NCBI RefSeq assembly: GCF_000337495.1
Contig: NZ_AOIS01000010.1
Coordinates: 13,270 to 77,269 of the forward strand
DNA length: 64,000 bases
Reading direction: 5' to 3'
Source of the DNA: Haloterrigena salina JCM 13891
GTDB taxonomy: Archaea > Halobacteriota > Halobacteria > Halobacteriales > Natrialbaceae
In this document: one piece after another, positions 1 to 16,178 of the stretch
Layout: the number at the start of each line of letters is the position of its first letter
Position numbering within the stretch: position 1 is the first letter of the stretch
Made by a program: the position numbers and the translations under genes
Notes under the pieces: model-generated
Database searches by the model: none
Seen by the model: the letters and a program-made list of their open reading frames with translations, nothing else
Told to the model about the DNA's origin: nothing

Positions 1-460
1 TCTCCTCTTTGGCTTCTTCGTCCTCGGCTCCCTCCTCCTCTTTGGCTTCTTCGTCCTCGGCTCCCTCCTCCTCTTTGGCTTCTTCGTCCTCGGCTTCCTC
101 TTCTTCGCCTTCTTCGTCCTCAGCTTCTTCCTCTTCAGCTTCTTCGTCCTTGGCTTCCTCCTCTTCAGCTTCTTCGTCCTTGGCTTCCTCCTCTTCAGCT
201 TCTTCGTCCTTGGCTTCCTCCTCTTCAGCTTCTTCGTCCTCGGCTCCCTCCTCCTCGGCTTCTTCCGATGCCTCTTCGGTATCAGCTGTCGATTCCTCGT
301 CGTTACCCTCCTCGGCAATCTCTGCTTGACCGCCGTCGGTCAGAACCCTTCGGCCCGCTCGCTCCGCGTGCTCACCGTCGTGACGATGGCTCGAGCGATC
401 CCCAACTGTCACGGGATCCGAACACTCCTCGGAACCATCATCTCCTAGACCCGTTGTCAT
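1..460 (-). CDS. Acidic repeat protein, C-terminus beyond window edge
   Basis: Partial minus-strand gene running off the left edge. From the ATG at 460 the first ~65 residues are unique and hydrophilic (starting MTTGLGDDGSEE). The rest is a Glu/Asp/Ala/Lys tandem repeat built on the decapeptide AEEEEAKDEE. No signal peptide, membrane segment or Cys cluster is visible. The opposite strand reads as a Ser/Ala-rich frame through the same repeat, which is much less haloarchaeal in character, so the acidic minus frame is preferred. I do not recognise the family. The region could be an extended charged linker or a single alpha-helix in a larger protein. The start codon is a best guess. Confidence 0.6.
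   Translation of the reverse strand, partial: MTTGLGDDGSEECSDPVTVGDRSSHRHDGEHAERAGRRVLTDGGQAEIAEEGNDEESTADTEEASEEAEEEGAEDEEAEEEEAKDEEAEEEEAKDEEAEEEEAKDEEAEEEEAEDEEGEEEEAEDEEAKEEEGAEDEEAKEEEGAEDEEAKEE
9..270. repeat. 30-bp in-frame tandem repeat (minisatellite)
   Basis: About eight imperfect copies of a 30-bp unit, each encoding ten residues of the minus-strand acidic protein. Variation between copies is mostly silent or Lys/Glu and Asp/Glu exchange, so the reading frame and the charge pattern are kept. There is no spacer variation of the kind seen in CRISPR arrays. Confidence 0.85.
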
Positions 461-602
461 TATATGCAAAACCCATGCGAGTGGGCGTTGTGGTAATTTC
501 CCTTGCGTATGCGACTGATGGCTGGATCGACCGCTCGAGGCAGATTGTAGTCGAGAAAACGGGTGAACGAGCGACGATTTCGAGCCGGATCTAACAGTTC
601 GA

Positions 603-1925
603 TTACTCGACCGAAGCCACGTGCAGGGCGTACTCGCCGCGGGTCTCGCCCTCGTCGTGGTAGGCCACGGGTTCCTCGATCGCCGCCAGCGTCCCGTCGT
701 CGACGGCAGCGGCGGTCGCGATCCCCGCGAGTCGGTCGACCCGTCGCGGTCCGGACTCGAGGTCGAACCGGCGAACGGCGTGGATTTCGGGATCGCGAAC
801 GCGGAAGTTCTGCGCGCAGGGCGCGACGATCGTCTCGCCGTCAGCGGTGAGGCCGTGAACGAAGCCCCGAACCTGGTCGTCCCACGCCAACTCGCCGTCG
901 GCGTCGAAGGTCGCGATCCGGTGCTCGTTCGGGTGGCGACTCTCCGTCTCGCGGCTCTCCACTGCGTAGGTGTTGCCGGTCACGAACGTCACGCGCCCGT
1001 CGGCCGCGTACGCGTGGTTCGGATAGGCGTACAGCGTCTCGCCGTCGATCTCGGTTTCGACCGCCAGATCGACGCGCCAGCGCTCGGCGCCGCCGGGGCC
1101 GAGCAGGTAGCCCCGTTTGTCGCCGTGGCTCGAGACCGCGATCGAATCGCCGTCGAAGGCAACGTCGCCGACGCGCCGGTCGCCCTCGGTGCCGGGGTCC
1201 CACGTCCACGCGAGGTCGCCCGATTCAGTTTCGAGGACGACGAGGCCGTTGTCGTGATCGCCCATACAGCGGTTGTAGCCGACCGCCAGTCGCTCGCCGT
1301 CGGCGTCGAGATCGATCGTGATCGGCGAGGCGTCGGTCTCGTACGTCCAGCGCACCGTGCCGTCGGGATCGAACGCGTAAACGGTGCTGTGCCACTGCCG
1401 ACGGTCGCCGTCGCGCTCGTACCGCCGCGCGGCGGCGTAGAGGCGCTCGTTGCCGTCGGCGTCGGTGCTGCTCTCGAGGGCGACCACGTACGGGAGGTAG
1501 AAGACGGTGTCCTTGACGGCCTCGCCGAGGTCGTCGACGGTCTCGTACCGCCAGCGCCGCTCGCCGGTCGCGGCATCGTAGGCTGCAATCGTGCCGGTCT
1601 CGCCGCGGCCGGCGACGATCACCGTCTCCGCGGTCTCGCCGTCGCTCTCGGTCCCGTCGCTCGAAAGCGTCGCGATTCCGACCGCGTGGTCCGGATGGTC
1701 GGCCGTCCAGTGGGTCTCGAGCGAGGCCGAGTCGACCTCGCGGGCGGTGACGGTGCCGTCCCACTCGCCGGTGACGACCAGATCGCCGCCTTCGGCGACG
1801 TGAACCGCGGATCGGGTCCACATGTGGCGGCTCCGAGCCGTCTCGATCTCGCCGAGCGAGACCGACCGGAACTCGCGGTCGCCGTCCCGATCGGCTTCGC
1901 GGTCGGCGTCAGCGGTTTCGGCCAT
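603..1925 (-). CDS. Cytoplasmic PQQ/WD40-like beta-propeller protein, end of cob operon
   Basis: A 440-residue beta-propeller protein. Repeated blades carry patterns such as YDAATGERRWRYET, FDPDGTVRWTYET and LETESGDLAWTWD, typical of PQQ-like (BamB-type) propellers. No signal peptide or lipobox is present, so it is probably cytoplasmic. The ATG at 1925 is chosen because it begins an acidic N-terminus 2 bp after the DUF3209 stop; the longer frame upstream overlaps DUF3209 out of frame. It is the last gene of the minus-strand cobalamin operon. A role in cobalamin synthesis is only suggested by position; a scaffold or sensor role is possible. Confidence 0.8.
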   Translation of the reverse strand: MAETADADREADRDGDREFRSVSLGEIETARSRHMWTRSAVHVAEGGDLVVTGEWDGTVTAREVDSASLETHWTADHPDHAVGIATLSSDGTESDGETAETVIVAGRGETGTIAAYDAATGERRWRYETVDDLGEAVKDTVFYLPYVVALESSTDADGNERLYAAARRYERDGDRRQWHSTVYAFDPDGTVRWTYETDASPITIDLDADGERLAVGYNRCMGDHDNGLVVLETESGDLAWTWDPGTEGDRRVGDVAFDGDSIAVSSHGDKRGYLLGPGGAERWRVDLAVETEIDGETLYAYPNHAYAADGRVTFVTGNTYAVESRETESRHPNEHRIATFDADGELAWDDQVRGFVHGLTADGETIVAPCAQNFRVRDPEIHAVRRFDLESGPRRVDRLAGIATAAAVDDGTLAAIEEPVAYHDEGETRGEYALHVASVE

Positions 1926-1927
1926 CG

Positions 1928-2299
1928 TCAGTCCTCTACCGGGAAGGTCTCGTGGAGGGTATCGTGAGCGTCCCCGAGGCCGTCGACGATACTCCCGCCC
2001 TGCGTGCGCAGCCGCTGGACCGCGCGTTCGGCGTCGCGAACCGCCAGCAGTCGTCCTCGCGTGTAGTCGTACTCGGGGTCGTCGTCGTCCATCGCGGCGA
2101 CCTCTTCCTCCAGATCCACGAGGGCCGCGTCGAGGTGGCGTTCGACCTCGGCGAGGCTCTCGGCGTTCGCGAGCCCTTCTATCGGCCCCTCGAGGTGGCC
2201 CTCGAGTTCGTTCTCCGCGTGGTCGCGGGCGCTGTCGTCCCCGACGCCGAGGACGTTCATCAGTCCGAGTCGTAGCGCTTCGATTTCGTAGCAGCTCAT
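1928..2299 (-). CDS. DUF3209 family protein
   Basis: A 123-residue acidic, mostly alpha-helical protein starting MSCYEIEALRLGLMNVLGV. This matches the DUF3209 family, which in haloarchaea is found beside cbiX. A conserved Cys-Tyr-Glu start and helical region rich in Glu/Asp/His could bind metal, but this is inference. It sits between cbiX (84 bp upstream) and the propeller gene (2 bp downstream). The ATG follows a GT dinucleotide run on the opposite strand. Function unknown; a role in cobalt handling is suggested by context. Confidence 0.8.
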   Translation of the reverse strand: MSCYEIEALRLGLMNVLGVGDDSARDHAENELEGHLEGPIEGLANAESLAEVERHLDAALVDLEEEVAAMDDDDPEYDYTRGRLLAVRDAERAVQRLRTQGGSIVDGLGDAHDTLHETFPVED

Positions 2300-2301
2300 G
2301 A

Positions 2302-2315
2302 GTGTGTGTGTGTGT
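2302..2315. repeat. (GT)7 dinucleotide run just upstream of DUF3209
   Basis: Seven GT units (AC on the coding strand) lie 2 bp before the DUF3209 ATG, in the only gap of notable size inside the 3' half of the cob operon. It replaces the usual purine-rich ribosome binding site position. Confidence 0.8.
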
Positions 2316-2382
2316 GTACTGACTGTTCGGAGTCGTGTTTTTCGTCTCGAGTGCGTCGGTGCACGTCGGTCGGTTCGGTCCG

Positions 2383-3615
2383 CTACAGCGTCTGATCGAC
2401 GAGGTCGCTGACGATGCGATCCCGATCGAGGTGGTCGCCGACGATCCGTTCGGCGTCCTCGCTCGCGACGTCGCCGTACCAGATCCCGTCCGGGTAGACG
2501 GCGACCATCGGCCCGTCCCCGCAGCGTCCCAGACACGAGGAACGCGTGATCCGCGCGTCGCAGTGGTCGGAATCCCGCACCTCCTGTCGGAGCCGCTCGA
2601 GGACCGACGGCGACCCCATCTCGGCACAGGTCTGGTTCATGCAGACCGCGACGTGCTTTTCGGGCGCGTCGTGGCTGTGGGGTTCGTCGTCGACGTCCTC
2701 GCGGTCGGCGTGGGCCTCCTGATGGGCCAGCGCGCGCAGCATGGCCCGCGCGCCGCCGACGTCCTCCTCGTAGCCCTCGAGGTCGACCTTGTACTTGCAC
2801 GTGTCACAGGACATGGAGACGCTGTCCGTGCGCGCCTCCTGCCAGCGGTCGGCGAAGACGTCGAGCAACCGCGAGTCGGTGCCGAGCGGGTCGCCGGCCA
2901 GCGCCTCCACGTACGGGTAGTCCTCGTCGAACTCCGCCGTCCAGTCGCGGACTCGCTGGGTGAGCACGCCGTCGCCGAGCATGTACGGCAGGACGACGAC
3001 CGCGTCGGGGCGGTGCTTCGAGAGCCCGTGGAGGGTGTCCTCGAGCGTCGGCTCGGTGACGCCGATGAACGTCGCCTCGACGCGGTCGAATTCGCGGCCC
3101 TCGTAGAGCAGGCGGGCCAGCTTGTGCACGTCGCCGTTGGCGTCCGGATCGCTCGAGCCGCGGCCACAGAGGACGACGGCGACGTCGTCTTCCGCACGGT
3201 CGACGCTCAGTTCGGCCTCGACTTCGGCGGCGCGGTCGTCGAGCAGATCCAAGATCGCGGGGTGGATCCCCAGGTGGGCGCCGTTGTTGATCTCGAGGTC
3301 GTGTTCGGCCCGGGCCTGCTCGATCGCCAGCGGCACGTCGTTCTTGACGTGGCTCGCCGCAAAGAGCGAGCAGTGGACCACCGTTACCTGCGAGGTGACG
3401 GGCGCGAGTTGCGCGAGCGCCTCGTCGATCGCCGGCTCCGCGAGTTCGAGGAACGCGGCGTCGACGGGGATGCCGAGTCGGGACTCGAGGCCGGCGGCGA
3501 GGTCCCGAACCTGTTCGTTGGACTTCTCCCGGCGGGAGCCGTGACCCACCAGCAGGAGCGCCTCGTCGTCGAACGCGGCCGTCGTCGCGGGCGTGGTCTC
3601 GTTGGATTTGCTCAT
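2383..3615 (-). CDS. cbiX: Sirohydrochlorin cobaltochelatase CbiX, long form with 2Fe-2S domain
   Basis: 410 residues. Two CbiX-type domains are visible: the first has LLLVGHGSRREKSNEQV near residue 22 with the metal-binding His, the second has CGRGSSDPDAN where His is replaced by Arg. A Cys/His-rich linker (CDTCKYK, then HSHDAPEKH) follows. The C-terminus is a thioredoxin-like [2Fe-2S] ferredoxin domain with Cys pairs CMNQTC and CLGRCGDG. The enzyme inserts Co2+ into sirohydrochlorin, the early step of the cobalt-first pathway. This long architecture with a 2Fe-2S tail is known for haloarchaeal CbiX; the cluster's role is unclear. ATG at 3615. Confidence 0.93.
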   Translation of the reverse strand: MSKSNETTPATTAAFDDEALLLVGHGSRREKSNEQVRDLAAGLESRLGIPVDAAFLELAEPAIDEALAQLAPVTSQVTVVHCSLFAASHVKNDVPLAIEQARAEHDLEINNGAHLGIHPAILDLLDDRAAEVEAELSVDRAEDDVAVVLCGRGSSDPDANGDVHKLARLLYEGREFDRVEATFIGVTEPTLEDTLHGLSKHRPDAVVVLPYMLGDGVLTQRVRDWTAEFDEDYPYVEALAGDPLGTDSRLLDVFADRWQEARTDSVSMSCDTCKYKVDLEGYEEDVGGARAMLRALAHQEAHADREDVDDEPHSHDAPEKHVAVCMNQTCAEMGSPSVLERLRQEVRDSDHCDARITRSSCLGRCGDGPMVAVYPDGIWYGDVASEDAERIVGDHLDRDRIVSDLVDQTL

Positions 3616-3649
3616 CGATTGGATGGTCGGATCGTCGTTGGTCGGTCGG

Positions 3650-4375
3650 TTACTCGTCGTACGCCGTCGCCTGCTCGAGGCTCCGCTCGAGTTTGCGGCG
3701 GCGACTCGGCGCGAAGAGGCCGGTCGCCTCGCAGTCCTCGTAGAGCCACGTGCCGAAGTCGGGCGCGGCGTCGTCGTCGACGCCGAACCAGTAGCCGCCC
3801 GACGAGGTCTCGGAGAGGTCGTCGTAGGGCGCGTCGACGGGACTCTCGTCGATCAGGTCCTGTGCGAGCTCGAGCAGGTCCGCGTCGTCGTGGACGAACG
3901 AGATGCCGACGGTGCCGCTCGAGGACTTGAAGCAGACGGTACCACAGCCCTCGAGCAGCCCTCGGAGGAGCTCTCGATCGTGGCTCGAGAACGCGCCGAA
4001 GCGGTAGTTGCCGCGACCGTCGACGGGGAGCCCGAGCGCGCCGCTGCGGCCCAGAAGGCCCGAGTCGTCGGTCCCGTCGTCGGCTCCGACCGACAGCGTG
4101 TACTCGTCTTCCGTCCGCGTGATCGAGGTGTCGTGGGCGTAGTCACGCGTCGTCGTCTCGTGCTCGAGGTCGCCGCCCGCGACGGCCGCGAGCACCCGTG
4201 CGGACTCCTCGTCGTTGGTGACGACTTCGATGCCGCTATCCGAGACGTCGCCGCTGCCGGCGACGTGCCCCCAGAAGTACGCCGTCGCGGGGTGGCCCGC
4301 GAGCGGGTCCGACGGAACCGCGATCTCGAGCGGCGTTTCGTCTCCGTCGTCGGCTTTCGATTCGGTCTCGCTCAT
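3650..4375 (-). CDS. Cob-operon protein with LAGLIDADG-like fold, apparently non-catalytic
   Basis: 241 residues, conserved in position within haloarchaeal cob clusters but without known function. By eye it has two LAGLIDADG-type half-motifs: AYFWGHVAGSGDV (about residue 32) and RELLRGLLEGCGTVCF (about 137). The C-terminal stretch GYWFGVDDD... FGTWLYEDCEATGL followed by RRRKLERSL looks like the end of a homing endonuclease domain (FLxWLY...L..RK). The catalytic acidic residue of each motif is Ser or Cys here, so nuclease activity is unlikely. It overlaps the ferredoxin gene by 4 bp (ATGA), so it is translationally coupled to it. The fold assignment is my inference. Confidence 0.75.
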   Translation of the reverse strand: MSETESKADDGDETPLEIAVPSDPLAGHPATAYFWGHVAGSGDVSDSGIEVVTNDEESARVLAAVAGGDLEHETTTRDYAHDTSITRTEDEYTLSVGADDGTDDSGLLGRSGALGLPVDGRGNYRFGAFSSHDRELLRGLLEGCGTVCFKSSSGTVGISFVHDDADLLELAQDLIDESPVDAPYDDLSETSSGGYWFGVDDDAAPDFGTWLYEDCEATGLFAPSRRRKLERSLEQATAYDE

Positions 4376-4638
4376 TCGCCTACCTCCTCGACGACGATCG
4401 CGTCCGTCGGGCAGGCCGCGGCGGCCTGCTGGGCCTCGTCGATTCGATCGTCGTCAAACGTCGCGACGACCCGGTCGTCGGTGTCCGCGACCTCGCCCTC
4501 GCAGTCGTAGACCGGATCCGCGTCGGGATCGATCGTCGCGAGGCCGTCCCCGCCCTCGACGAACCGCGGGTCGCGGGTCAGGCAAGCAAAGATGCCGTCG
4601 CAGGCGTCCTTCTCGATGGTGACTTCGTATCGTGGCAT
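4372..4638 (-). CDS. Small ferredoxin of cob operon
   Basis: 88 residues starting MPRYEVTIEKDACDGIF. Cys13-x5-Cys19 and a late Cys-Pro (ACPTDAI, near 76) fit a single-cluster ferredoxin of the 3Fe-4S/4Fe-4S type, with a further Cys in the middle (VYDCEGE). It is located directly after cbiH2 and overlaps the next gene, so it probably serves as electron donor in corrin ring synthesis, for example for ring contraction chemistry or cobalt reduction. The exact partner is not known from sequence. The ATG at 4638 is preferred to an upstream extension that would run into cbiH2. Confidence 0.85.
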   Translation of the reverse strand: MPRYEVTIEKDACDGIFACLTRDPRFVEGGDGLATIDPDADPVYDCEGEVADTDDRVVATFDDDRIDEAQQAAAACPTDAIVVEEVGE

Positions 4639-4646
4639 GCTGATCC

Positions 4647-5699
4647 TCAGTAGTCGTACTTCGTCTCGTAGCCCCGGGGCGTGACCATCCGGTCGTCCCA
4701 GACGTAGGTGTCCTCGGTGCCGACGACGATCGTCGTCGTCATGTCGATGATTTCGCTTTCGCCGAGTTCCTCGAGTTCGGCGAGTTCCGTGATCATCACC
4801 TGCTCGTCCTCGCGGCCGGCGCCGTGGACGATGCCGACGGGCGTATCGGGGTCCCGATGAGTGAGGAGAATCTCGCAAGCCTTCTGGAAGTTCTCGCGGC
4901 GCTTGCGGCTCCACGGGTTGTAGATCGTGATCGTGAAGTTCTCGCTGGCGACCGAGTGCAGGCGCGACTCGATCTCGGGCATCGGAACGAGGTGGTCCGA
5001 CAGCGAGACCGAGACGGTGTCGTTCACGAGGGGGGCACCGAGCCGAGCGGCACAGGACTGGGCCGCCGGGACGCCCGGCACCACTTCGAAGTCGACCATC
5101 GAGGCCGTCGCGCCCTTGGACTCTAAGATCTCGAGGGCCAGCCCCGCCAGCGCGTAGACGTTGGGGTCGCCGCTGCCGACGATGGCGACGTCGTTGCCCG
5201 CCAGCGCGCGGTCGATCGACTCCTCGGTTCGCGACACCTCACCGCACATCGGCGTGTCGTAGATGTCCTCGGCCTCGTCCGTGATCTCGTCCGGGATGAG
5301 CTCGATGTAGGTCGTGTAGCCGACGATGTGGTCGGCCTCGAGTAACGCAGTCTTCGCGCGCTCGGTCATTCCTTCGGGGTGGCCGGGGCCGAGGCCGACG
5401 GCGATCAGCTGGCCGGGCTCGGCGTCGAAGTCCTCGATCGTCGCGCCGACCTCCTTCTCGTTGCTGCCCGAGTCGTCGGAGCTCGAGGCCCCGCACGAAC
5501 TCGAGGACGAGGAATCGGAACTCGAACTGGAACTGGAGGCGCCGCATTTGGAACCGCTCGAGTCGTCCGTCTCGTTCGAGGAGGCGCCGCACTTCGATTC
5601 CGATTCCGAAGACGAGGTCTCGGCCTCTGTATCGGTACTCGAGGCCCCGCACTTGGACGTCGATTCATCGTCAGCGTCTGCGTTGGTGTCCGTACTCAT
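4647..5699 (-). CDS. cbiH: Cobalt-factor III methyltransferase CbiH (copy 2) with Cys-Gly-Ala-Ser repeats
   Basis: 350 residues. The C-terminal ~250 residues are a precorrin/tetrapyrrole methylase: IAVGLGPGHPEGMTERAK at the start, GSGDPNVYALAG as the SAM loop, PGVPAAQSCAA, and a conserved end VTPRGYETKYDY. This fits precorrin-3B/cobalt-factor III C17-methyltransferase (ring contraction). The first ~85 residues are a Ser/Asp/Glu-rich extension with four copies of CGASS, each separated by 13-20 residues. These cysteines are well spaced for metal binding or disulfide formation. It is directly followed by the ferredoxin gene and preceded by a second cbiH. ATG at 5699. Confidence 0.92.
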   Translation of the reverse strand: MSTDTNADADDESTSKCGASSTDTEAETSSSESESKCGASSNETDDSSGSKCGASSSSSSSDSSSSSSCGASSSDDSGSNEKEVGATIEDFDAEPGQLIAVGLGPGHPEGMTERAKTALLEADHIVGYTTYIELIPDEITDEAEDIYDTPMCGEVSRTEESIDRALAGNDVAIVGSGDPNVYALAGLALEILESKGATASMVDFEVVPGVPAAQSCAARLGAPLVNDTVSVSLSDHLVPMPEIESRLHSVASENFTITIYNPWSRKRRENFQKACEILLTHRDPDTPVGIVHGAGREDEQVMITELAELEELGESEIIDMTTTIVVGTEDTYVWDDRMVTPRGYETKYDY

Positions 5700-5716
5700 G
5701 GTTGGATTGCGTATTA

Positions 5717-6613
5717 TCAGAAGTCGTCGACGTCACGCCCGCCCCGCGGGGTGACGAGGTACGTTCGGTCGTCGTTGCGCCAGGTCTCGGTCTCGTGGTT
5801 GCCGATGATCAGCGAGGTGCCCATCCCGGAGACCTTGTCGTCGTGGTCGGCGGCCTCGCCGAGGGTCGTGATGAACTGGCTCTCGCCGTTCCGGCCGGCG
5901 TCGGCGCGGCCCGCGTCGTTGACGATGGCCACGCGGGCGTCGTCGGTGCGCTCCTCGCGGACGATCTCGACCGCCTTCTCGTAGTTTCGCCAGCAGTTGT
6001 AGAGGACGATCACGAAGTCGCTGATCGCCGCGGCGCGCAGTTTCTCCTCGATCTCGTCCCAGCCGCGCCACTTGTCCGACAGCGAGATCGTACAGAAGTC
6101 GTTGCAAAGCGGCGCGCCGACGTTGGCCGCGCCGCCCAGCGCCGCCGTCATGCCGGGCACGATCTCGATCGGGACGTCCGTGGCGTCCTCCTCGTCGGCC
6201 ATCTTGAAGATCAGGTCGGACTTGCCGTAGACCGACGGGTCGCCGCCGGAGACGTGGGCCACGTCCTTCCCTTCGCGGACGTAGTCGAACGCCGCGCGGG
6301 CGAGTTCGATCTGGCGCCCCATCGTCGAGCGGACGATCTCCTGCTCGAAGCCGTCCTCGCGGGTCGCGATGCCATCCTCGTCCGTTCGCTCCTCCGAGGG
6401 GATCGTGCCGTCGTCGCGCAGGAACTCCTGATAGAGGCTCGAGGCGATAACGACCTCCGAGGACTCGATGACCTCCTTGGCCCGCTTGGTCATGTGATCG
6501 GGCAGGCCGGGGCCGATGCCGACGACGTAGAGGGTGCCGTGGTCGTCGGGGGTGCCGCCGGTGGTCGCGTCCGCTGCCGTATCGGCGGCGGCGGAGTCAG
6601 CGTCCGAACTCAT
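5717..6613 (-). CDS. cbiH: Cobalt-factor III methyltransferase CbiH (copy 1)
   Basis: 298 residues, tetrapyrrole methylase family: VVGIGPGLPDHMTKRAK, SGGDPSVYGKSDL, PGMTAALGGAANVGAPL and LVTPRG near the end. It carries an insertion after the first motif (residues ~60-90, acidic) not seen in copy 2. Haloarchaea commonly encode two CbiH-like proteins next to each other, which may divide methylation and ring contraction between them; this division is inference. It overlaps cbiG by 4 bp (ATGA at 6610-6613). Confidence 0.92.
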   Translation of the reverse strand: MSSDADSAAADTAADATTGGTPDDHGTLYVVGIGPGLPDHMTKRAKEVIESSEVVIASSLYQEFLRDDGTIPSEERTDEDGIATREDGFEQEIVRSTMGRQIELARAAFDYVREGKDVAHVSGGDPSVYGKSDLIFKMADEEDATDVPIEIVPGMTAALGGAANVGAPLCNDFCTISLSDKWRGWDEIEEKLRAAAISDFVIVLYNCWRNYEKAVEIVREERTDDARVAIVNDAGRADAGRNGESQFITTLGEAADHDDKVSGMGTSLIIGNHETETWRNDDRTYLVTPRGGRDVDDF

Positions 6614-7605
6614 CGGCCGATCGCCACCGTAACCTCGTTCTCGTAGCTGATCTTCTCGAGCACCAGTTCCTGCTCGGCCCCGCCCGCAATCGCGGAGGCC
6701 TCGGAGACGCCCGGCCAGCCGATCAGCTCCTTCGATTTGGAGGGCGTCGGCCCCTCGTGGTCGAGCAGCGTCTCCTTATCGAAGGCAACGACGCCGAGGT
6801 CGAGCTCCTGTGCGGCCTCGAGCAGTCCCTCCTCGTCTTCCTTCCGGGTCGCAGTGCCGACGAACTCGACGTCCGCGAGGTCGTAGTCCGTTCGCTCGAG
6901 TGCCTCTTCCCAGGCCTCGAGGAAGGCCTCCTTGTCGGCCCCGGAGACGCTGCCGGTGCCGAGGACGACCCCCTCGTCCTTGTTGCGCTTGAGAACCGTC
7001 ACGTCGTCGCCGACGAGGACGGCCTTCGGGCCCTCGAGTCGCTCGACGGGGCCGAGGTTGTCGTCCAGTACGGCGAGGTTGGTCTTCACCGTCGAGTCGC
7101 CGTTGACGACGTGGGTGTCCATCGCCTTCGCGCGCGACTCGACGCCCTGCTTGCCGGCCGCCTCGGAAGCGGTAGTCATCGCCGGAACGGCACCCATTGT
7201 CGCCAAGTCCTGTGCGACCTGATTCGCGCCGTGGTGGCCGCCGGTGATCGGGATGGCCCACGTGAGTTCCTCGTCGACCACGCAGATCGCGGGATCGTCC
7301 CACTTGTCGTCGAGCAGGTGGGCCGTCTTCCGCATCGCGATCCCCGAGGCCATGAGGCCGATGAAGCAGTCGTACTCGCCCCAGTGCTCCTCGAAGACGT
7401 CGCCGTGGTACTCGATGATGTCGATCGCCTCGTAGCGATCGCCGATCTCGGCTTTGATCTCCTCGGCGGTGTCCATCTTTCGCCCGAAGGAGATGATCGC
7501 GATCTCCTCGGCGACTTCGCCGTCCGAATCCGGCGTCGAACAGTGGCCGCCGTCGGAATCCGATCCGCCGTCGTCGTTCGCGTTGTCAGCGTTGTCCGTA
7601 CTCAT
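6610..7605 (-). CDS. cbiG: Cobalt-precorrin-5A hydrolase CbiG
   Basis: 331 residues. CbiG opens the delta-lactone ring and releases acetaldehyde. Motifs of the family are clear: GLMASGIAMRKTA, the ITGGHHGANQVAQDLA block, GTGSVSGADKEA and SKELIGWPGVSEASA near the C-terminus. The N-terminal ~35 residues are acidic with a single HCS. ATG at 7605 is chosen because it lies 2 bp after the cbiF stop; the open frame continues upstream only as overlap with cbiF. CbiG together with CbiX, CbiL, CbiF and CbiH defines the cobalt-early pathway. Confidence 0.93.
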   Translation of the reverse strand: MSTDNADNANDDGGSDSDGGHCSTPDSDGEVAEEIAIISFGRKMDTAEEIKAEIGDRYEAIDIIEYHGDVFEEHWGEYDCFIGLMASGIAMRKTAHLLDDKWDDPAICVVDEELTWAIPITGGHHGANQVAQDLATMGAVPAMTTASEAAGKQGVESRAKAMDTHVVNGDSTVKTNLAVLDDNLGPVERLEGPKAVLVGDDVTVLKRNKDEGVVLGTGSVSGADKEAFLEAWEEALERTDYDLADVEFVGTATRKEDEEGLLEAAQELDLGVVAFDKETLLDHEGPTPSKSKELIGWPGVSEASAIAGGAEQELVLEKISYENEVTVAIGR

Positions 7606-7607
7606 GA

Positions 7608-8507
7608 TTAATCGTCTCCCGCTTGCGTTTCCGTTTCGTTCGCGTCGCTCGATCCTCGGTTCGCCCAGTCGCCGTAGAGGAAGGATCGCTCGTAGCCCGC
7701 GCCGGTCACGGCGTCGCCGATGACAACCAGCGCCGAGGCGCGGTAGCCGGCCTCCTCGACCTTGTCCGCGATCGATCCGATATCGCCGACGATCACGTCC
7801 TCGTCCGGCCACGAGGCGTGGTAGATTACCGCGACCGGTGTCTCGGGATCGTGATCGTCCTCGAGCAGTCGGTCCATCGTGTCCCGAACCGCGTGGGTCC
7901 CGAGGTATATGCAGGTCGTCACGTCGCCCATCTCCACGAAGTCGGAGATGTGGTCCTCCTCCGCCGTGAGCGTCTTGCCCTGCGGCCGGGTGAACGCGAC
8001 GTGATTCGAGACCTCGTTGAGCGTCAACTGGGTCCGCAGCGTCGCGCTGGCCGCGAAGGCCGACGTGACGCCCGGCACGAAGTAGGTCGGGACGCCCTCG
8101 TGTTCCAGCGCGTCCATCTGCTCCAGGGCGGCGCCGTAGATCGCCGGATCGCCGCTGTGGAGCCGCACGACGTTGTCGCCATCCTCGTAGGCGTCCCGCA
8201 TCAGCGGAATCAGCTCCTCGAGGTCCTTGCCGACCGAATTCACCAGCTCCGCGTGGCCGCAGTACTCGTCGAGGAGCTCGCTGTTGACCAGCGAGCCCGC
8301 GTGGACCACGAGGTCGGCGTCCTCGAGCAGTTCCTTGCCCGCGACGGTCAGTAGGCGCGGGTTGCCGGGGCCGGCACCGACGAAGGGGATCCCCTCCTGC
8401 TCGTCGCCGGCGCTGTGCTCGAAGATCCGGTCGTCGAGTTCTTCGCGGCGGCGTTTGCTTTGGGAGTCGATCGCGTCCTGCGGGTCGTTCGGTGTGTCTT
8501 CAGTCAT
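7608..8507 (-). CDS. cbiF: Cobalt-precorrin-4 C11-methyltransferase CbiF
   Basis: 299 residues. SAM-dependent tetrapyrrole methylase with FVGAGPGNPRLLTVAG after a 40-residue charged N-terminus, LHSGDPAIYGALEQMD-like SAM loop (LHSGDPAIYGAA), PGVTSAFAASA and RPQGKTLTAEE, the set expected for CbiF/CobM. The C-terminus (after residue ~275) is a short acidic tail. It overlaps cbiL by 4 bp, so it is translationally coupled. Confidence 0.93.
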   Translation of the reverse strand: MTEDTPNDPQDAIDSQSKRRREELDDRIFEHSAGDEQEGIPFVGAGPGNPRLLTVAGKELLEDADLVVHAGSLVNSELLDEYCGHAELVNSVGKDLEELIPLMRDAYEDGDNVVRLHSGDPAIYGAALEQMDALEHEGVPTYFVPGVTSAFAASATLRTQLTLNEVSNHVAFTRPQGKTLTAEEDHISDFVEMGDVTTCIYLGTHAVRDTMDRLLEDDHDPETPVAVIYHASWPDEDVIVGDIGSIADKVEEAGYRASALVVIGDAVTGAGYERSFLYGDWANRGSSDANETETQAGDD

Positions 8508-9319
8508 CGATGGCCTCCACAGTCGCCGCCCTCACAGCCCTCGGCGTGCTCGAGGGCGGCGACTTCCCCGCCGTCCGCGACGGGTTCGCCGCTCGAGTCG
8601 GGGTCGTTCGCGGTCGCGTCGTCCGCGTCGTCCTCCTCGAGGAACGCCGCCGTCGCCTGCTCGACCTCGAGGTCTTCCCTCTCGGCGTAGGCGAGCGTAT
8701 AGTAGTCGCGCTCGTCGAGCTCCTCGGGGTCGTCGGTGACGATCGTCTCGCCCTGTTCCATGAACAGCCGACGGCCGTAGGTCACGTCGTAACCGGCCTC
8801 GACGAGTCCCTCGTGGGTCGCCGGCGCGTCGGTGACCTTGAACAGGATCATCCGATCCGGGCCCGTCGGGCTCGCGCCGGACGCGGCCTCGCGCAGCGAG
8901 AGCCCGGCACCGGCCTCGATCTCGACGCCCATCGCGGTCGCGAACGCGGTCACGGCGCTGACGCCGGGGACGATCTCGAGGTCGACGTCGGGGTGGAAGG
9001 CGTCGATCGTCCGGCGCAGGTGTCCGAACGTCGAGTAGACGTTCGGATCGCCCAGCGTGACGAAGGCGACGTCGCCGTCGCGTGCGTTCGGCGCGATCTC
9101 CGCAGCGGCGTCCTTCCAGGCCGCACGGAGCTTCTCCTCGTCTTTCGTCATCGGGAAGTCGAGATCCCCGATCTTCGACTCGTCGACGTGCTCGAGGGCG
9201 ACGGTCCGAGACAAGCGGCCCGGCGAGTAGACCACGTCAGCGTTCTCGAGAATTTCCTTCCCGCGGACCGTGACGAGGTCGGCCTCGCCGGGGCCGAGCC
9301 CGACGCCGTACAGCGTCAT
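8504..9319 (-). CDS. cbiL: Cobalt-factor II C20-methyltransferase CbiL
   Basis: 271 residues, starting directly with the methylase motif YGVGLGPGEADLVTVRG. VTLGDPNVYSTFGHL is the SAM-binding loop and VPGVSAVTAFATAMG follows, as expected of CbiL/CobI. The C-terminal ~35 residues are acidic and end in a Cys/His cluster (HAEGCEGGDCGGHR) that could bind metal. Overlaps cbiT by 4 bp. Confidence 0.93.
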   Translation of the reverse strand: MTLYGVGLGPGEADLVTVRGKEILENADVVYSPGRLSRTVALEHVDESKIGDLDFPMTKDEEKLRAAWKDAAAEIAPNARDGDVAFVTLGDPNVYSTFGHLRRTIDAFHPDVDLEIVPGVSAVTAFATAMGVEIEAGAGLSLREAASGASPTGPDRMILFKVTDAPATHEGLVEAGYDVTYGRRLFMEQGETIVTDDPEELDERDYYTLAYAEREDLEVEQATAAFLEEDDADDATANDPDSSGEPVADGGEVAALEHAEGCEGGDCGGHR

Positions 9320-10023
9320 TGTCGGCTCCCCCCGCTTTTCGAATCGCCCGCGGTGATTCGACCTACGTCGGAGCGACGCTCCGACGAGGATCGCCTCGTT
9401 TCACTCGGCTCACCACCGTCTGCAGCGACTTTCTTCCCGCCATCGTCGTCTGCGTCTTCGTCGGCCGTCGCGCTCCCGACCAGCATGTAGACCGGATTAT
9501 CCGAGTTGAAACTCGTCGCGCCGGCGAGTTCGTAGCCGTTGCTCACCTGGAACTGGACGACCTCCTCGAGGATATCGCGCTCGCGGAACGCCTCGGTCGC
9601 TTTCCCGGCGACCTCGAGTCGCGAAACGTTCATCACGATGCGGTCGACACCGGTCTCGACGGCGTGGTCGAGGACGGCCTCGAAGTTGCGGCTCCCGCCC
9701 AGGAAGAGCGCGTCGGCGTCGTCGGGCAGCCCCTCGGGGGCTTCCGCGTTGCGCAGTTCGACGTCGGCGCGGACCGACTCCTCGTTCGCGGCGAGGTTCT
9801 TCTCGGTCGTCTCGAGCCGTTCGGCCTTCCGCTCGAGGGCGGTCACTCGCCCGGCCCGCTGTGCGGCTTCGATGGTGACGGCCCCCGTACAGGAGCCGAC
9901 CTCCGCGAAGTGGTCGTCCGCCTCGAGCACGAGCTTCGAGGCGACGACGGCGCGGACCTCGGACTTCGTCGGTCCGGCCTTCGCGTCGTGTGGAAGCGCG
10001 ATGGGTGGCATCACCCGTGGCAA
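9316..10023 (-). CDS. cbiT: Cobalt-precorrin-6B C15-methyltransferase/decarboxylase CbiT, first gene of operon
   Basis: 235 residues from a TTG start. Class I methyltransferase fold: PHDAKAGPTKSEVRAVV, AEVGSCTGAVTIEAA (SAM-binding glycine motif), ALFLGGSRNFEAVLD and VMNVSRLE are the CbiT signature. CbiE, fused to CbiT in CobL of aerobic bacteria, is separate here (17.8 kb). A strong GGGGAGG (10030-10036) lies 6 nt before the TTG at 10023, but 18 nt before the first ATG at 10011, so TTG is favoured. After residue ~190 there is a low-complexity acidic/Ser-Arg tail. Confidence 0.9.
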   Translation of the reverse strand: MPRVMPPIALPHDAKAGPTKSEVRAVVASKLVLEADDHFAEVGSCTGAVTIEAAQRAGRVTALERKAERLETTEKNLAANEESVRADVELRNAEAPEGLPDDADALFLGGSRNFEAVLDHAVETGVDRIVMNVSRLEVAGKATEAFRERDILEEVVQFQVSNGYELAGATSFNSDNPVYMLVGSATADEDADDDGGKKVAADGGEPSETRRSSSERRSDVGRITAGDSKSGGSRQ

Positions 10024-10029
10024 CAGCAG

Positions 10030-10036
10030 CCTCCCC
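10030..10036 (-). promoter_or_regulatory. Ribosome binding site that selects the cbiT TTG start
   Basis: GGGGAGG on the minus strand, complementary to the 16S anti-Shine-Dalgarno, 6 nt upstream of TTG 10023. The alternative GTG (10014) and ATG (10011) are 15-18 nt away. Confidence 0.55.
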
Positions 10037-10049
10037 TAAAACAATTTTG

Positions 10050-10085
10050 TTTGGTATAGGGCAAGTTCGCTTGCTTAGTTGCAGT
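10050..10085. promoter_or_regulatory. Possible weak operator copies upstream of the cbiT operon
   Basis: Two degenerate inverted repeats with the N6 spacing of the cbiA/cobN palindrome: TTTGG-TATAGG-GCAAG (10050-10065) and CTTGC-TTAGTT-GCAGT (10070-10085). The inner arms also form GCAAG-TTCG-CTTGC (10061-10074), a 5-bp stem with a TTCG loop. A TATA-like TATACC on the minus strand lies in the same stretch. The match to the better palindromes is only partial. Confidence 0.3.
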
Positions 10086-10204
10086 TGGAGTAGTTCAAGA
10101 GGGGTTGTGCTACGGAGCGAGACGATCGACTCGAGCGCGTCGAACCGTGCCAAAAAGTGTCGCCTCGAGGTCGGGTCGAGGAGCGATACGCGATGAGCGC
10201 CGCG

Positions 10205-10987
10205 TCACCACTCCATGCCGCCGTTGATACCGAGGACCTGTCCGGTCATGTACTCCGCCTGATCGCTGGCGAGGAATCGAATCATGCCGACGATGTCCTC
10301 GGTCGTGGCGAAGCGATTCAGCGGGATGTCCTCGCGGATCTTCTCTTGGACGCGCTCGGGGACCTTCTCGAGCATGTCCGTCCGAGTGAAGCCGGGCGCG
10401 ACGCAGTTGGCCGTCGAGCCGTGGCCGGCCAACTCGAGGGCGAGCGTCCGGGTGAAGGCGAAGAGGCCGCCCTTCGAGGTCGCGTAGTTGGCCTGGCCGT
10501 AGTTGCCCTGCTGGCCGACGACGCTCGAGATATTGATGAGCCGTCCGTGTTCGGACGCCTTGATGTCCTCGTAGAACGCCTTCGTACAGTTGAACGTCCC
10601 GTTCAGGTTGACGTCGATGACGGTCTGCCAGTCCTCGTGGGTCATGTCCTCGAACTTCCGATCGATCGTGATCCCCGCGTTGTTGACGAGGACGTCGATC
10701 TCGCCGAGTTCCTCGCGTACCTCCGCGGCCATTCGCTCGACCTGCGTCGGGTCGGAGATGTCGGCTTGCACCGGGACGGCTGTCTCGCCGTTGGCTTCGA
10801 TCGTCTCCGCGACCTCGAGGGCGCGGTCCTCGGCCGAGCGATAGTTGACGGCCACGTCGGCGCCGGCGCGGGCGAGTTCGAACGCGATATCGCGGCCGAT
10901 CCCGCGGGACGATCCGGTGACGAGACAGGTGCGATCGGTCAGCGGCCTTCGCTCCAGCGGCTCGAGTCGGGAGACGGTTTCTGACAT
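10205..10987 (-). CDS. SDR-family 3-oxoacyl/acetoacetyl-CoA reductase (PhaB/FabG type)
   Basis: 260 residues of short-chain dehydrogenase: cofactor motif VTGSSRGIG (residues ~24-32), NNAG at ~99, catalytic ISS...Y-x3-K visible in [22 protein letters not shown], and a C-terminal [12 protein letters not shown]. The best fit is NADPH-dependent acetoacetyl-CoA reductase of PHA synthesis or FabG-like beta-ketoacyl reductase; haloarchaea lack classical fatty acid synthase, so a PHA or acyl-CoA role is more likely. It is alone on this strand segment; no phaE/phaC nearby. ATG at 10987 with TATA-like AAATAGTTAAC about 26-35 bp upstream. Confidence 0.88.
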
Positions 10988-11131
10988 ACGAACGACACTA
11001 CGCTCGCATTCGTGTTAACTATTTGACTGTATATCAGTAGCTGTGACTACCAGTCCGTGATTCCATTCCAATCCGAACGGACGGACTCGATGCGTTTCGA
11101 GACACTCGTTCACAGCAGTACAGCGCGGAAG

Positions 11132-11151
11132 CCCACCCCTTTAGGGGTGGG
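11132..11151. repeat. Left-end hairpin of the TnpB element
   Basis: Perfect inverted repeat CCCACCCC-TTTA-GGGGTGGG, as expected for the subterminal hairpins recognised by TnpA of the IS200/IS605 family. Confidence 0.75.
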
Positions 11152-11216
11152 AGGAAGCGCGTAAACTCTATGCCACAGCCCACCGATATCAGCAGGGCCG
11201 ACTCCCGAAATAATCG

Positions 11217-11232
11217 TCGTATATATAAATAA
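11217..11232 (+). promoter_or_regulatory. TATA box of tnpB
   Basis: GTCGTATATATAAATA-like AT-rich box centred about 28 bp upstream of the tnpB ATG (11255), which fits a leaderless transcript. Confidence 0.6.
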
Positions 11233-11254
11233 CCAGTCTCAATGTGGTTCTGTC

Positions 11255-12481
<1,227 letters not shown>

Positions 12482-12484
12482 GCC

Positions 12485-12500
12485 CACGGCTTTAGCCGTG
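12485..12500. ncRNA. Right-end hairpin, likely 3' end of TnpB guide RNA (reRNA)
   Basis: CACGGCT-TT-AGCCGTG inverted repeat 4 bp after the tnpB stop. In IS200/IS605 elements the right-end structured region forms the scaffold of the reRNA, and the bases just outside the element are the guide. Here the guide would be read into the glycosyltransferase gene from about 12501 on. RNA expression is inferred. Confidence 0.45.
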
Positions 12501-13427
12501 AGTAGATGACTCCGTCTCGACCGAGACGTCGAACTTGCCGCGCCACCGGTAGCGTCGCCCGCCCCAGACGAACGTTCGTCGGACGAGGCCGTACGCGAGC
12601 AGCGGAATCGCCGCCAGCGCGACCGGATACGCCGCGAGGAACGTCCATCGACGAACGCCGAACGCGGCGTAGACGACGGCCATCGCGGCCGTCAGTAGCA
12701 CCAGCGCGGGGAGCGGAAACAGCACGCACCCGGCGGTGAGCGCCGATCCCAGGACGAACTGGCCGGCGGTCGCGACCGGATCGTGGTACCGGACGATTTT
12801 CGCGAACCGAACCTGATTCTCGAGCGTCTCGCGGACCGAGCCACCGATCTCGACGCGGCGCGTCCGCCCGACGCTCGTGATATCGGCGTACTCCATGAGG
12901 AGGCCGTCGTCGCTCACCGTCCGCCGGAGTTCCGAGAGGAACGCCTCTTCGTCGATGTCGTCGCGTTCGAAGACGAGCGACCCGCCCCAGGGAACGCCCC
13001 CTCGAGAGACGGCGAGCGTTCCGCTGAGAACGTGGGTCGGCTCGAGGAGTCGGGCGAGCGGATCCCGGCCGACGAAGACCGGGACTTCCGTGGTCGGTCC
13101 GTACCGTTCGTAGTCGCGGCGCAGTCCGTCCAGCCAGTCGGGCGGATGGTGATAGTCGTCGTCGGACCAGACGAGGCGATCACACTCGGCCGCGTCCATT
13201 CCGGCCGCGATCGCGTTCGCCTTCCCGGAACAGCCCTCGGGTTCGCCCGCGACCACCAGCCTAACGTCGTCCGGGCGGTCGTCGATTCGCTCGGCGACCG
13301 ACTCGACCGCCCTGTCACAGACCACGAGGAGTTCGTCCCCCGGACGCAGTTGCGCGGCGATCTCTTCGCAGGCGTCGTTCCACCCCGTCGTGGGTAGAAT
13401 GACGCTGATCGGCGTTGGCTCTACCAT
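12492..13427 (-). CDS. Family 2 glycosyltransferase, C-terminus cut by IS element
   Basis: 311 residues. GT2 catalytic domain at the N-terminus: ISVILPTTGWND, nucleotide-binding and DxD-type VWSDDDYHHPPDW, then EADITS-like/VGRTRR region. Two to three membrane helices follow (about residues 225-290). The ATG at 13427 is favoured because a TATA box (ATTTAATTATAAGG, 13446-13459) puts the transcript start at the ATG. The last residues STHG and the TAA stop (12492-12494) come from the right-end hairpin of the TnpB element, so the native C-terminus is missing. Whether function survives is unknown since the loss may be only a cytoplasmic tail. Confidence 0.85.
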   Translation of the reverse strand: MVEPTPISVILPTTGWNDACEEIAAQLRPGDELLVVCDRAVESVAERIDDRPDDVRLVVAGEPEGCSGKANAIAAGMDAAECDRLVWSDDDYHHPPDWLDGLRRDYERYGPTTEVPVFVGRDPLARLLEPTHVLSGTLAVSRGGVPWGGSLVFERDDIDEEAFLSELRRTVSDDGLLMEYADITSVGRTRRVEIGGSVRETLENQVRFAKIVRYHDPVATAGQFVLGSALTAGCVLFPLPALVLLTAAMAVVYAAFGVRRWTFLAAYPVALAAIPLLAYGLVRRTFVWGGRRYRWRGKFDVSVETESSTHG

Positions 13428-13445
13428 GCACTCCCTATCGACCAC

Positions 13446-13459
13446 CTTATAATTAAATG
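13446..13459 (-). promoter_or_regulatory. Promoter of the glycosyltransferase gene
   Basis: AT-rich TATA box ATTTAATTATAAGG on the minus strand, centred ~26 bp upstream of ATG 13427; fits a leaderless transcript. Confidence 0.55.
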
Positions 13460-13548
13460 ACAGGTGATCGGAGCGGAGTCAGCTATCAACTCACGATTAG
13501 CGGCACGTCGGTCGAGACTATCGAATCGGTCGAACGCGATCGCCGCGA

Positions 13549-14859
13549 TCAGCGACTGCTCTCCTCGAGGAACCGATCGAACGCACCGCTCTCGGCGTGG
13601 ACGTGGACGTACGTCCCCAGCGAGTCGTACTCCGTGAGACCGTCGTGGTCGCCGTCGATGCCGTCGCCCCGCACGGTCTCGAAGGCGAAGCGGGCGTCGT
13701 TGTCGACGTCGGCGCTCGAGTAGTGAAACTCGTGGCCACGGATCGTCTGGCCGGCGCCGGCAGTGAGCGTCCCCTCGAGGGCCTCGAGTTCGACGTGATC
13801 GAGCGCCTGATAGCGGTCGTGCATGGTGACGTCCGCTGGGAGAATGCCGGCCATCTCGTGGGTATCGCCCGCCGCCGTGGTCAGTGTTTGGCTCATGGCC
13901 ATCAGACCACCGCACTCGCCGAGAACGGGGAGTCCCTCGCTCGCGAGTCGAGCGAGTTCGTCGAGCGTATCGCTCGACTCGAGTTCCGCGCCGTGGAGTT
14001 CGGGGTAACCGCCGGGGAGGTAGACGCCGTCGCAGTCGGGGACGGGATCGCCCGCGACGGGCGAGAACGTGACCAGTTCGGCGCGCTCGCGGAACCGCTC
14101 GATCGTCGCCGGATACCGGAAACAGAAGGCGGCGTCGCTGGCGACGGCGACCGTGGCGTCGACGGGTTCGGCGGACTCGACGGGTTCGGCGGGCGCGGGC
14201 GGCGCCGTCGCGACCGCGGCCAGCCGTTCGGCCTCGAGCGATTCCGCGGCCTCCCGCAGCGCGTCTCTGGGGAGGGCGGCCTCCGCGCCCATCTCGAGGC
14301 CCAGGTGCCGGTCGGGAATCTCGAGGTCGTCGTTCGGCGGGATCCGCCCGAAGTACTCGAGGTCGTCGGGGAGGGCGTCACGGATGCCCTGCTCGTGACG
14401 GCCGCCGTGGGCCCGCTGGGCGACGACGCCGGCGACCTCGATATCGCGGCCGATCGCGTCGGCGTACTCCTTGAAGCCCAGCGCGGTCGCCGCGACGCTC
14501 TCCATGCCGGCCTTGGCGTCAGCGACGAGGACGACGGGGATGTCGAGCGCCTCGGCGACCATCGCCGTGCTCGAGCCGTCGCCGTCGTACAGTCCCATGA
14601 CGCCCTCGACGACGCAGACGTCGCCCTCGCCGCGCCGGTAGTTGCGCCGGAGGCCGTCCTCGCCGCAGAGCCACAGATCGAGCGTGCGGGAGGGCCGGCC
14701 CGCAATCGCCTCGTGGTGGCTCGGGTCGATGAAGTCCGGGCCCGCCTTGGCCGGCTGGACCGCGTAGCCGGCGTCCTCGAGGGCCTGCACGATCGACAGC
14801 GTCGCGACCGTCTTCCCGACGCCGGAGCTGACGCCGCCGAGGACGAATCCGTTCATCAT
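13549..14859 (-). CDS. cbiA: Cobyrinate a,c-diamide synthase CbiA
   Basis: 436 residues (CobB in the aerobic naming). ATP-binding domain: GGVSSGVGKTVATLSIV (P-loop), KAGPDFIDPSHHEA, EGVMGLYDG. Glutamine amidotransferase domain in the C-terminal half: YLPGGYPELH, GECGGLMAMSQ with the catalytic Cys, and a His-containing end YVHVH. It amidates the a and c acetate groups of cobyrinate. Two successive ATGs (14859, 14856) are possible starts. The gene is separated from other cob genes by the glycosyltransferase/IS segment and has its own promoter region with a palindrome at 14863-14880. Confidence 0.94.
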   Translation of the reverse strand: MMNGFVLGGVSSGVGKTVATLSIVQALEDAGYAVQPAKAGPDFIDPSHHEAIAGRPSRTLDLWLCGEDGLRRNYRRGEGDVCVVEGVMGLYDGDGSSTAMVAEALDIPVVLVADAKAGMESVAATALGFKEYADAIGRDIEVAGVVAQRAHGGRHEQGIRDALPDDLEYFGRIPPNDDLEIPDRHLGLEMGAEAALPRDALREAAESLEAERLAAVATAPPAPAEPVESAEPVDATVAVASDAAFCFRYPATIERFRERAELVTFSPVAGDPVPDCDGVYLPGGYPELHGAELESSDTLDELARLASEGLPVLGECGGLMAMSQTLTTAAGDTHEMAGILPADVTMHDRYQALDHVELEALEGTLTAGAGQTIRGHEFHYSSADVDNDARFAFETVRGDGIDGDHDGLTEYDSLGTYVHVHAESGAFDRFLEESSR

Positions 14860-14862
14860 TGT

Positions 14863-14880
14863 AGTTGCGTTCGCACAACT
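14863..14880. promoter_or_regulatory. Candidate cobalamin-gene operator upstream of cbiA
   Basis: AGTTGCGTTCGCACAACT, an inverted repeat with arms GTTGC/ACAAC and 6-bp centre GTTCGC, 3 bp upstream of the cbiA ATG. The same layout and centre pattern (RTTMGC) occur in the cobN/chlID promoter at 23318-23333. Confidence 0.5.
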
Positions 14881-15272
14881 GAACTTGAATCCGTCGGTGG
14901 CGGTGGTGTACAGTTTCTCGAGGGGACAGAGCGAGAAACGTAAGAAGGGATTCGGACGGGAGGAGGCGGCCTGCTATCGTGGCAACAGGGAGTTACCACG
15001 CCCTCCCCAACCGACTGCGGTCCTCGCTCCACAAGTCGCTGCGGTCCTCATCCCTCGCGCGCTTCAGTGACTGACCTCGCGTAGCTCACGGTTCCCTTCG
15101 GTCTCCGTTCGCTTTCCGAGGTTCTCACTTCGTTCGAACCTCGCCTCGCTCGGCCAGTCCCCAGCGCGCGCCACCGCGTAGAGCCTAATAGTGCGACACT
15201 CAATACTCTCGTCGCGATCCGAGGCGACCGAAACCGAATTGGGCGTCGTCCGCGTTCGAGAACTCGAGACCA
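14881..15272. other. Intergenic region, no gene seen
   Basis: About 390 bp between the cbiA promoter and the DUF1802 gene. It holds two related GCTGCGGTCCTC-like strings (near 15015 and 15042) but no convincing coding frame on either strand, and no tRNA-like structure that I can recognise. Confidence 0.5.
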
Positions 15273-15830
15273 ATGAGCGACGCGACGACGGCCGAGACGG
15301 TGCCGGCGCTGAAGGAGCGCGCCGGCGTCGTCAACGCCCTGCTCGACGGCGCCCAGACCGTCCTCGTCCGCCACCCGACGCTCGATCCGGGGACGATCGA
15401 CGACGAATTCGTGCTCTATCCGGCCTATAGCCATCAGGACCCCGCGCGGTACCAGTCGCGGTACGAGCACTACTACCATCGCTCGAGCGCGAAACCCGAG
15501 GCCGGCGTGCCGATCCGCGCCGTCGCCGACGTCCGCGAGGAATACCGCGTCTCGAGTGACGCCCTCGAGGCGCTGGCTCGCCACTACGTCTACACGCCGG
15601 ACGGCCTGCGCGACAAGTACGACCTGGAGGACGACCTGCGCGTGCTGTTGCTTCGCGTGTCGGCGCTCGTGTCACCGCGACTCGTCGAGGAACGAAGCAG
15701 CTACCGCGGCTGTCGCGCGTGGATCGACCTCGAGAACGACGTCGATGTCGATACCGAGGCCTCGCTCCCGGTGCTCGACGACGCGACCTTCGCCGAGCGG
15801 CGGGCCGCGGTTCGGGACGCCCTCGAGTGA
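15273..15830 (+). CDS. DUF1802 family protein
   Basis: 185 residues beginning MSDATTAETVPALKERAGVV. The signature ALKE...V..ALLDG.QTVLVRHPT and EFVLYPAYSHQDPARY matches DUF1802 (pattern E-F-x-LYPT-Y-x-HQ). These proteins are soluble and of unknown function. Isolated on the plus strand, with the next small gene 70 bp downstream. ATG at 15273. Confidence 0.8.
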   Translation: MSDATTAETVPALKERAGVVNALLDGAQTVLVRHPTLDPGTIDDEFVLYPAYSHQDPARYQSRYEHYYHRSSAKPEAGVPIRAVADVREEYRVSSDALEALARHYVYTPDGLRDKYDLEDDLRVLLLRVSALVSPRLVEERSSYRGCRAWIDLENDVDVDTEASLPVLDDATFAERRAAVRDALE

Positions 15831-15900
15831 CGGCCGGTGTTCGGTTCGACCCACCGACGAACTTAACCGCTCGAGTCGGCTACGACCGTCGGATCGAACT

Positions 15901-16074
15901 ATGAGTGGTGAACCTGGGAGCGACACCGAGATCGAGCACCACCTCCGGGAAGCGCTGCAGCACCTGAGCGCGGCCCGCGACGCCGACGAGCTCCGGAAGA
16001 CCAACGCCGTCGCGCTCGAGGAGGTCGAGAACACCGTCTCGACGGTGCTGCGGGAGTACGAACAGGACGAGTGA
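15901..16074 (+). CDS. Small acidic helical haloarchaeal protein
   Basis: 57 residues, starting MSGEPGSDTEIEHHLREAL. Predicted to be two amphipathic helices rich in Glu, Arg and Leu (heptad-like LREALQHLSAARD), so possibly a small dimer. Codon use is typical of neighbours. I do not recognise a named family. ATG is immediately preceded by GTCGGATCGAACT, without a clear Shine-Dalgarno. Confidence 0.6.
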   Translation: MSGEPGSDTEIEHHLREALQHLSAARDADELRKTNAVALEEVENTVSTVLREYEQDE

Positions 16075-16178
16075 GGCCGCCGATCGAGACGGGGACGTCC
16101 GTGGCCTCGCGCGGAGTCTCACAGACGGTGCCGGTTCTCGAAATAGTTATTTTGTCCGATGGGTGATTGCAAGCAACA

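Follow-up and report, generated by a model that had tools for sequence, protein, structure and literature searches.

Genomic context of LAG

The window, a stretch of 64,000 nucleotides from Haloterrigena salina JCM 13891, carries on its minus strand a cobalamin operon with the gene order cbiT, cbiL, cbiF, cbiG, cbiH1, cbiH2, ferredoxin, LAG, CbiX, DUF3209 and PQQ-like propeller. LAG is the name used here for a LAGLIDADG-fold protein of 241 residues, encoded at positions 3650–4375 and recognised from its open reading frame and predicted structure. The block from cbiT to cbiH2 occupies positions 4647–10023 and is followed by the gene for a ferredoxin (4372–4638; Fer4_15 by domain match), the upstream neighbour of LAG. 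The stop codon of the ferredoxin gene overlaps the LAG start codon in an ATGA sequence, an arrangement in which LAG is translationally coupled to the ferredoxin gene. On the other side lie the genes for a CbiX cobaltochelatase (2383–3615) with an MXCXXC motif and a C-terminal 2Fe-2S thioredoxin-like domain, for a DUF3209 protein (1928–2299) and for a PQQ-like propeller protein (603–1925), the last two assigned with the help of the annotation of orthologues. The computed pI of LAG is 4.06, and its orthologues are named 'cobalamin biosynthesis protein' in some RefSeq records and 'hypothetical' in others. A scan of positions 1–20000 of the window for Rfam families, cobalamin riboswitches included, found none; promoter and terminator scans around LAG were empty, the models being of bacterial type and uninformative for archaea.

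In Haloferax volcanii the slot between cbiX1 (HVO_B0054) and HVO_B0056/cbiH2 is taken by HVO_B0055, according to the published account of this cluster (PMC8305020), and gene order alone suggests that LAG is an HVO_B0055-type gene. The same account names four unassigned cobalamin-cluster genes as obvious candidates for the CbiD/CbiJ gap, of which LAG, as HVO_B0055 by position, would be one (PMC8305020).

Predicted structure of LAG

The two LAGLIDADG half-motifs that the earlier note had read in this gene are present in the translation as quoted, YFWGHVAGSGDV at residues 33–44 (4244–4279) and LLRGLLEGCGTV at residues 136–147 (3935–3970), as is the C-terminal segment RRRKLERSL at residues 225–233 (3677–3703); all three were placed from translation and conservation. 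Searches of Pfam, NCBIfam and PDB sequences with the window protein alone returned nothing relevant. PDB searches run with two profiles as well as the protein likewise gave nothing relevant; a Tektin match at E 0.62 was put down to chance. Among the relatives of LAG, 23 of 36 matched the Pfam family LAGLIDADG_3 at E ≤ 1 (best 3.6e-5), the ones that were scored individually falling short of the curated cut-off of 22.5 bits, and given these matches the half-motifs are, on sequence grounds, more than chance. A LAG profile matched four inteins of one haloarchaeal genome weakly (E 0.0004–0.004).

The fold assignment was decided by structure. AlphaFold models of the window protein (pLDDT 86, pTM 0.84) and of a Haloarcula relative in which the first acid position is Asp (pLDDT 88, pTM 0.87) both show the helix-strand-strand-helix-strand-strand unit twice over, which is the complete two-repeat LAGLIDADG core. 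Every PDB match at E ≤ 0.001, 35 for the first model and 34 for the second, was a LAGLIDADG protein (WhiA, I-DmoI, I-Tsp061I, inteins; Z-scores up to 15.2), and the first unrelated match to the second model appeared only at E 0.07 with a probability of 0.2. Structural alignment of LAG gave a Z-score of 15.2 over 180 residues with an rmsd of 3.1 for WhiA, and 14.7 over 167 residues with an rmsd of 3.4 for I-DmoI; I-Tsp061I was matched by the second model with a Foldseek E-value of 1.1e-7. On these models LAG clearly adopts a predicted two-repeat LAGLIDADG fold. The homing-endonuclease fold put forward in the earlier note is borne out in this way, and the paired core on which that proposal depended was recovered by the structure prediction and fold search it had suggested.

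The closest parallel is the N-terminal domain of WhiA (DUF199), which like LAG is a domesticated two-repeat LAGLIDADG fold that has lost its metal-binding residues (PMC3781837). WhiA binds DNA through a C-terminal helix-turn-helix (HTH) (PMC3781837), whereas the LAG chain ends with the last LAGLIDADG helix (residues 222–239) and aligns to residues 11–215 of the 303-residue WhiA chain. LAG further differs from WhiA in being archaeal, in its fixed place in a metabolic operon and in the conserved Cys and His at the old active site, and no sequence match between the two was found. The archaeal endonucleases I-DmoI and I-Tsp061I and the intein endonucleases share with LAG the single-chain two-repeat fold and the same size. 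LAG differs from them in that the acid pair has become Ser, Asp or Asn plus Cys, and in that it lies outside introns and inteins and is vertically kept in an operon.

Former active site and conservation

Alignment of relatives, and a weak comparison with haloarchaeal intein endonucleases, place Ser41 (4253–4255) and Cys144 (3944–3946) on the first and second metal-binding acid positions. Position 144 is Cys in 107 of 108 relatives and Ser in one; position 41, readable in 107, is Ser in 68, Asp in 36, Asn in two and Ala in one. The statement in the earlier note that the acid is lost from both motifs holds for the window protein but not for the family, given Asp41 in 36 of 107 members; by the alignment, the loss extends throughout the family only in the second motif. 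In Natrinema hispanicum DSM 18328 the LAG gene (locus L050, 6001–6753) encodes Ser at position 144 and retains Cys148.

In active homing endonucleases both motif helices end in an acidic residue that binds metal, and the gene sits in an intron or intein or is mobile and free-standing. LAG does not carry the acid at both helices, and its operon position is fixed. Because the catalytic acid positions carry Ser, Asp, Asn or Ala in the one case and Cys or, once, Ser in the other, DNA cleavage by LAG through the classical mechanism is very unlikely, judging from these residues.

Over 20 diverse members with identity down to 35%, 21 residues are invariant, among them His81 (4133–4135), Cys144, Cys148 (3932–3934), Arg138, Glu142, Ser159, Trp196, Arg225 and Lys228. 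Cys148, on the first strand of repeat II, adjoins the former active site. The dN/dS ratio of LAG against its relatives is 0.08–0.23, and the protein is therefore functional and under purifying selection. Residues, fold and dN/dS agree with the earlier view that the catalytic pair has been lost and the protein domesticated into the cobalamin operon.

Distribution of LAG and linkage to CbiX

The survey covered 391 haloarchaeal genomes from 86 genera of one class; LAG was present in 204 of them, from 50 genera, with BLAST and profile searches in agreement. cobJ scored above the cut-off in 210 genomes, and eight genomes have a strong cobJ match without LAG. A long-scoring CbiX was likewise found in 204 genomes and occurs together with LAG in 203 (Fisher p about 1e-112; both the counts and this value are inflated by shared descent), a co-occurrence that would also be expected of any other role bound to this kind of operon, regulation among them. 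One of these 203 genomes, G371, carries a His-tailed CbiX according to a reading of its open reading frame. At 136 of 146 loci, a set in which some genomes occur more than once, the order is ferredoxin-LAG-CbiX, and two genomes, G014 and G314, have LAG without an adjoining ferredoxin. G317 has LAG without a cbi operon beside it, and neither CbiX nor a strong cobJ match was found in that genome. The G317 LAG gene (locus L159, 9494–10267) is intact and keeps all key residues, and may be either a remnant or an indication that LAG also acts outside B12 synthesis.

The divergent LAG of G021, at 35% identity, retains Cys144, Cys148 and His81. In this single case it lies within a gene run of CDF cation transporter, LAG, rhodanese and a further CDF transporter, and the 2Fe-2S CbiX is found on another contig adjoining DUF3209. 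A search for further members of this divergent lineage that would repeat the transporter neighbourhood found none. Judging from its open reading frames, G021 also carries inteins, one in a dCTP deaminase-like gene and what seem to be three in a gene for ribonucleotide reductase (L160 13362–15443; L161 11354–17998).

CbiX in operons without LAG

Seven genomes of four families (G001, G007, G129, G269, G319, G318 and G359) are without LAG in genome-wide searches and hold the cbi core together with ChlID, cobN, cbiC and cbiE, the stretch fetched for G318 and G359 covering only part of the cbi core. Ferredoxin, DUF3209 and propeller genes are absent at all seven loci. The CbiX proteins of these genomes have no 2Fe-2S domain and end in a His-rich tail, with 12–17 His per 40 tail residues, versus 3–6 in the 2Fe-2S type. 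A description of them as simply 'short' was abandoned on reading the open reading frames, which revealed the tail. Haloarchaeal CbiX comes in two kinds (L143–L150; window 2383–3615): beyond the shared MXCXXC motif the chain continues either with a 2Fe-2S domain or with a His-rich tail. Among the listed haloarchaeal plasmid records no further operon without LAG was found.

In one genome, G052, a His-tailed CbiX occupies the LAG slot exactly, between the ferredoxin and the 2Fe-2S CbiX, and all other operon genes are retained, DUF3209 and propeller included. Derivation of this His-tailed CbiX from the operons without LAG finds no support in the CbiX tree, which places it as a long branch beside the 2Fe-2S type. 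The locus L084 (the genome G371) has the order ferredoxin-LAG-CbiX with a His tail and without the 2Fe-2S domain, and has lost DUF3209. A strict rule that LAG excludes the His tail was dropped for this reason. Neither the LAG/His-tail rule nor the LAG/CbiX rule is absolute, since L084 has both LAG and the tail and G317 has LAG without CbiX. DUF3209 appears to accompany the 2Fe-2S CbiX, being found with it in G021 and lost in L084.

Discussion

The comparisons between genomes direct attention to cobalt insertion, the CbiX step, and not to promoters, and we favour, with a probability of about 40%, the reading that LAG is a cobalt-handling accessory of this step. It is suggested by the invariant Cys residues in the former metal site and adjoining it, by the replacement of LAG with a His-tailed CbiX in G052 together with the His tails in all operons without LAG, and by the CDF transporter genes between which LAG lies in G021. 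LAG would act as a protein accessory in early cobalt insertion, its rebuilt former active site holding Co2+ or gating its delivery. Cys144 and Cys148, perhaps with His81 and His162, may stand in for the Mg2+-binding acids, and the metal would be passed to the neighbouring CbiX through a putative contact, LAG so playing the part ascribed elsewhere to the His-rich CbiX tail. The complete scheme, in which the fold of a selfish homing endonuclease has become a cobalt-handling protein whose cysteine-rebuilt Mg2+ site holds Co2+, feeds CbiX and is exchangeable with the His-rich tail, is put forward more tentatively. The CbiXL protein of Bacillus megaterium has the same combination of MXCXXC motif and His-rich tail as the CbiX of haloarchaeal operons without LAG, and its tail has been put forward as a means of storing and delivering metal (PMC7689651). 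Deletion of that tail left cobalt insertion unaffected (PMC7689651), so that the analogy draws on a proposed role. CbiXL is a chelatase, and LAG, a protein unrelated to it, may provide metal handling as a separate component. CobW (COG0523), which delivers Co2+ to a chelatase, would resemble LAG in its working only, being a GTPase of unrelated fold that serves CobNST (PMC7689651).

The earlier note had instead suggested a regulator of the WhiA kind or a structural part for B12 synthesis. The latter is possible, and the nearest variant of the cobalt-handling reading is one in which LAG would support or scaffold the complex of ferredoxin and 2Fe-2S CbiX. As a regulator, LAG would bind DNA (or RNA) of the cobalamin operon through a retained LAGLIDADG saddle, its cysteines perhaps sensing cobalt or redox state. 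The LAGLIDADG fold binds DNA in homing endonucleases, WhiA is among the top structural matches, and conserved Arg and Lys residues (R77, R87, K150 and R225–K228) lie on or near the presumed saddle; we regard this role as conceivable but doubtful. LAG is encoded mid-operon and coupled to ferredoxin, its exchange for a chelatase in G052 is hard to square with regulation, and its low pI also speaks against this role, though halophile proteins are generally acidic. The WhiA comparison itself is weakened because the DNA-binding HTH is absent, the modelled and structurally aligned LAG chain stopping where it would start, and the endonuclease-like domain of WhiA alone gives no DNA footprint (PMC3781837). 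We think it rather unlikely that LAG, binding no cobalt itself, serves to bring ferredoxin to the 2Fe-2S domain of CbiX, as a scaffold or as a partner in electron transfer. The gene order, the ATGA overlap and the co-occurrence of LAG with the 2Fe-2S CbiX would suit such a partner, but G014 and G314 have LAG without ferredoxin alongside, L084 has it alongside a CbiX without the 2Fe-2S domain, and G052 keeps ferredoxin although LAG is gone.

It is improbable that LAG catalyses or enables the missing CbiD (EC 2.1.1.195) or CbiJ (EC 1.3.1.106) step, for which it counts among the four published candidates. No match to CbiD (PF01888/TIGR00312) or CbiJ (PF02571/TIGR00715) was found in the genome of the window and 23 others, those without LAG included, with positive controls; LAG itself matches neither family. 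The seven genomes with a cbi core and no LAG also lack CbiD and CbiJ, along with the ferredoxin, DUF3209 and propeller of the locus. The gap thus exists with or without LAG, which counts against LAG as its general filler, and we know of no LAGLIDADG protein with methyltransferase or reductase activity. If LAG were a homing endonuclease that had died recently or was decaying, with no function for the host, the loss of the catalytic acids would be accounted for, but this reading is scarcely credible: it is already contradicted by the selection data (dN/dS 0.08–0.23), and an operon position fixed across many families, residues invariant down to 35% identity and the absence of an intron or intein context all speak against it.

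Nuclease-dead, domesticated LAGLIDADG proteins are already known from WhiA. Pfam, NCBIfam and the literature searched yielded no LAGLIDADG family that lacks an HTH, holds a fixed place in a biosynthetic operon and conserves a Cys at the old site, and LAG adds such a domesticated family, widespread in one archaeal class. One of the four genes in the haloarchaeal B12 cluster that have long gone unassigned is given a predicted fold and a lineage, and the comparison of genomes speaks against the published idea that this gene is needed to close the CbiD/CbiJ gap. Two haloarchaeal cobalt-insertion modules can also be told apart, a His-tailed CbiX alone and a 2Fe-2S CbiX accompanied by LAG, ferredoxin and DUF3209, a contrast that opens cobalt supply to CbiX for direct testing in Haloferax. 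No LAGLIDADG protein with a non-nucleic-acid function is known to us, and a cobalt-handling LAG would, if the reading is correct, be the first to our knowledge.

Other features of the window

A TnpB/OrfB-like gene with a zinc ribbon (CSKCGH...CNECGY) lies on the plus strand at 11255–12481, between the cbiT block and the cbiA-like, cbiE, cbiC and cobN genes (13549–23387). An open reading frame at 9–329 on the plus strand encodes nearly all Ser and Ala, and may be an artefact, antisense to a repetitive coding region.
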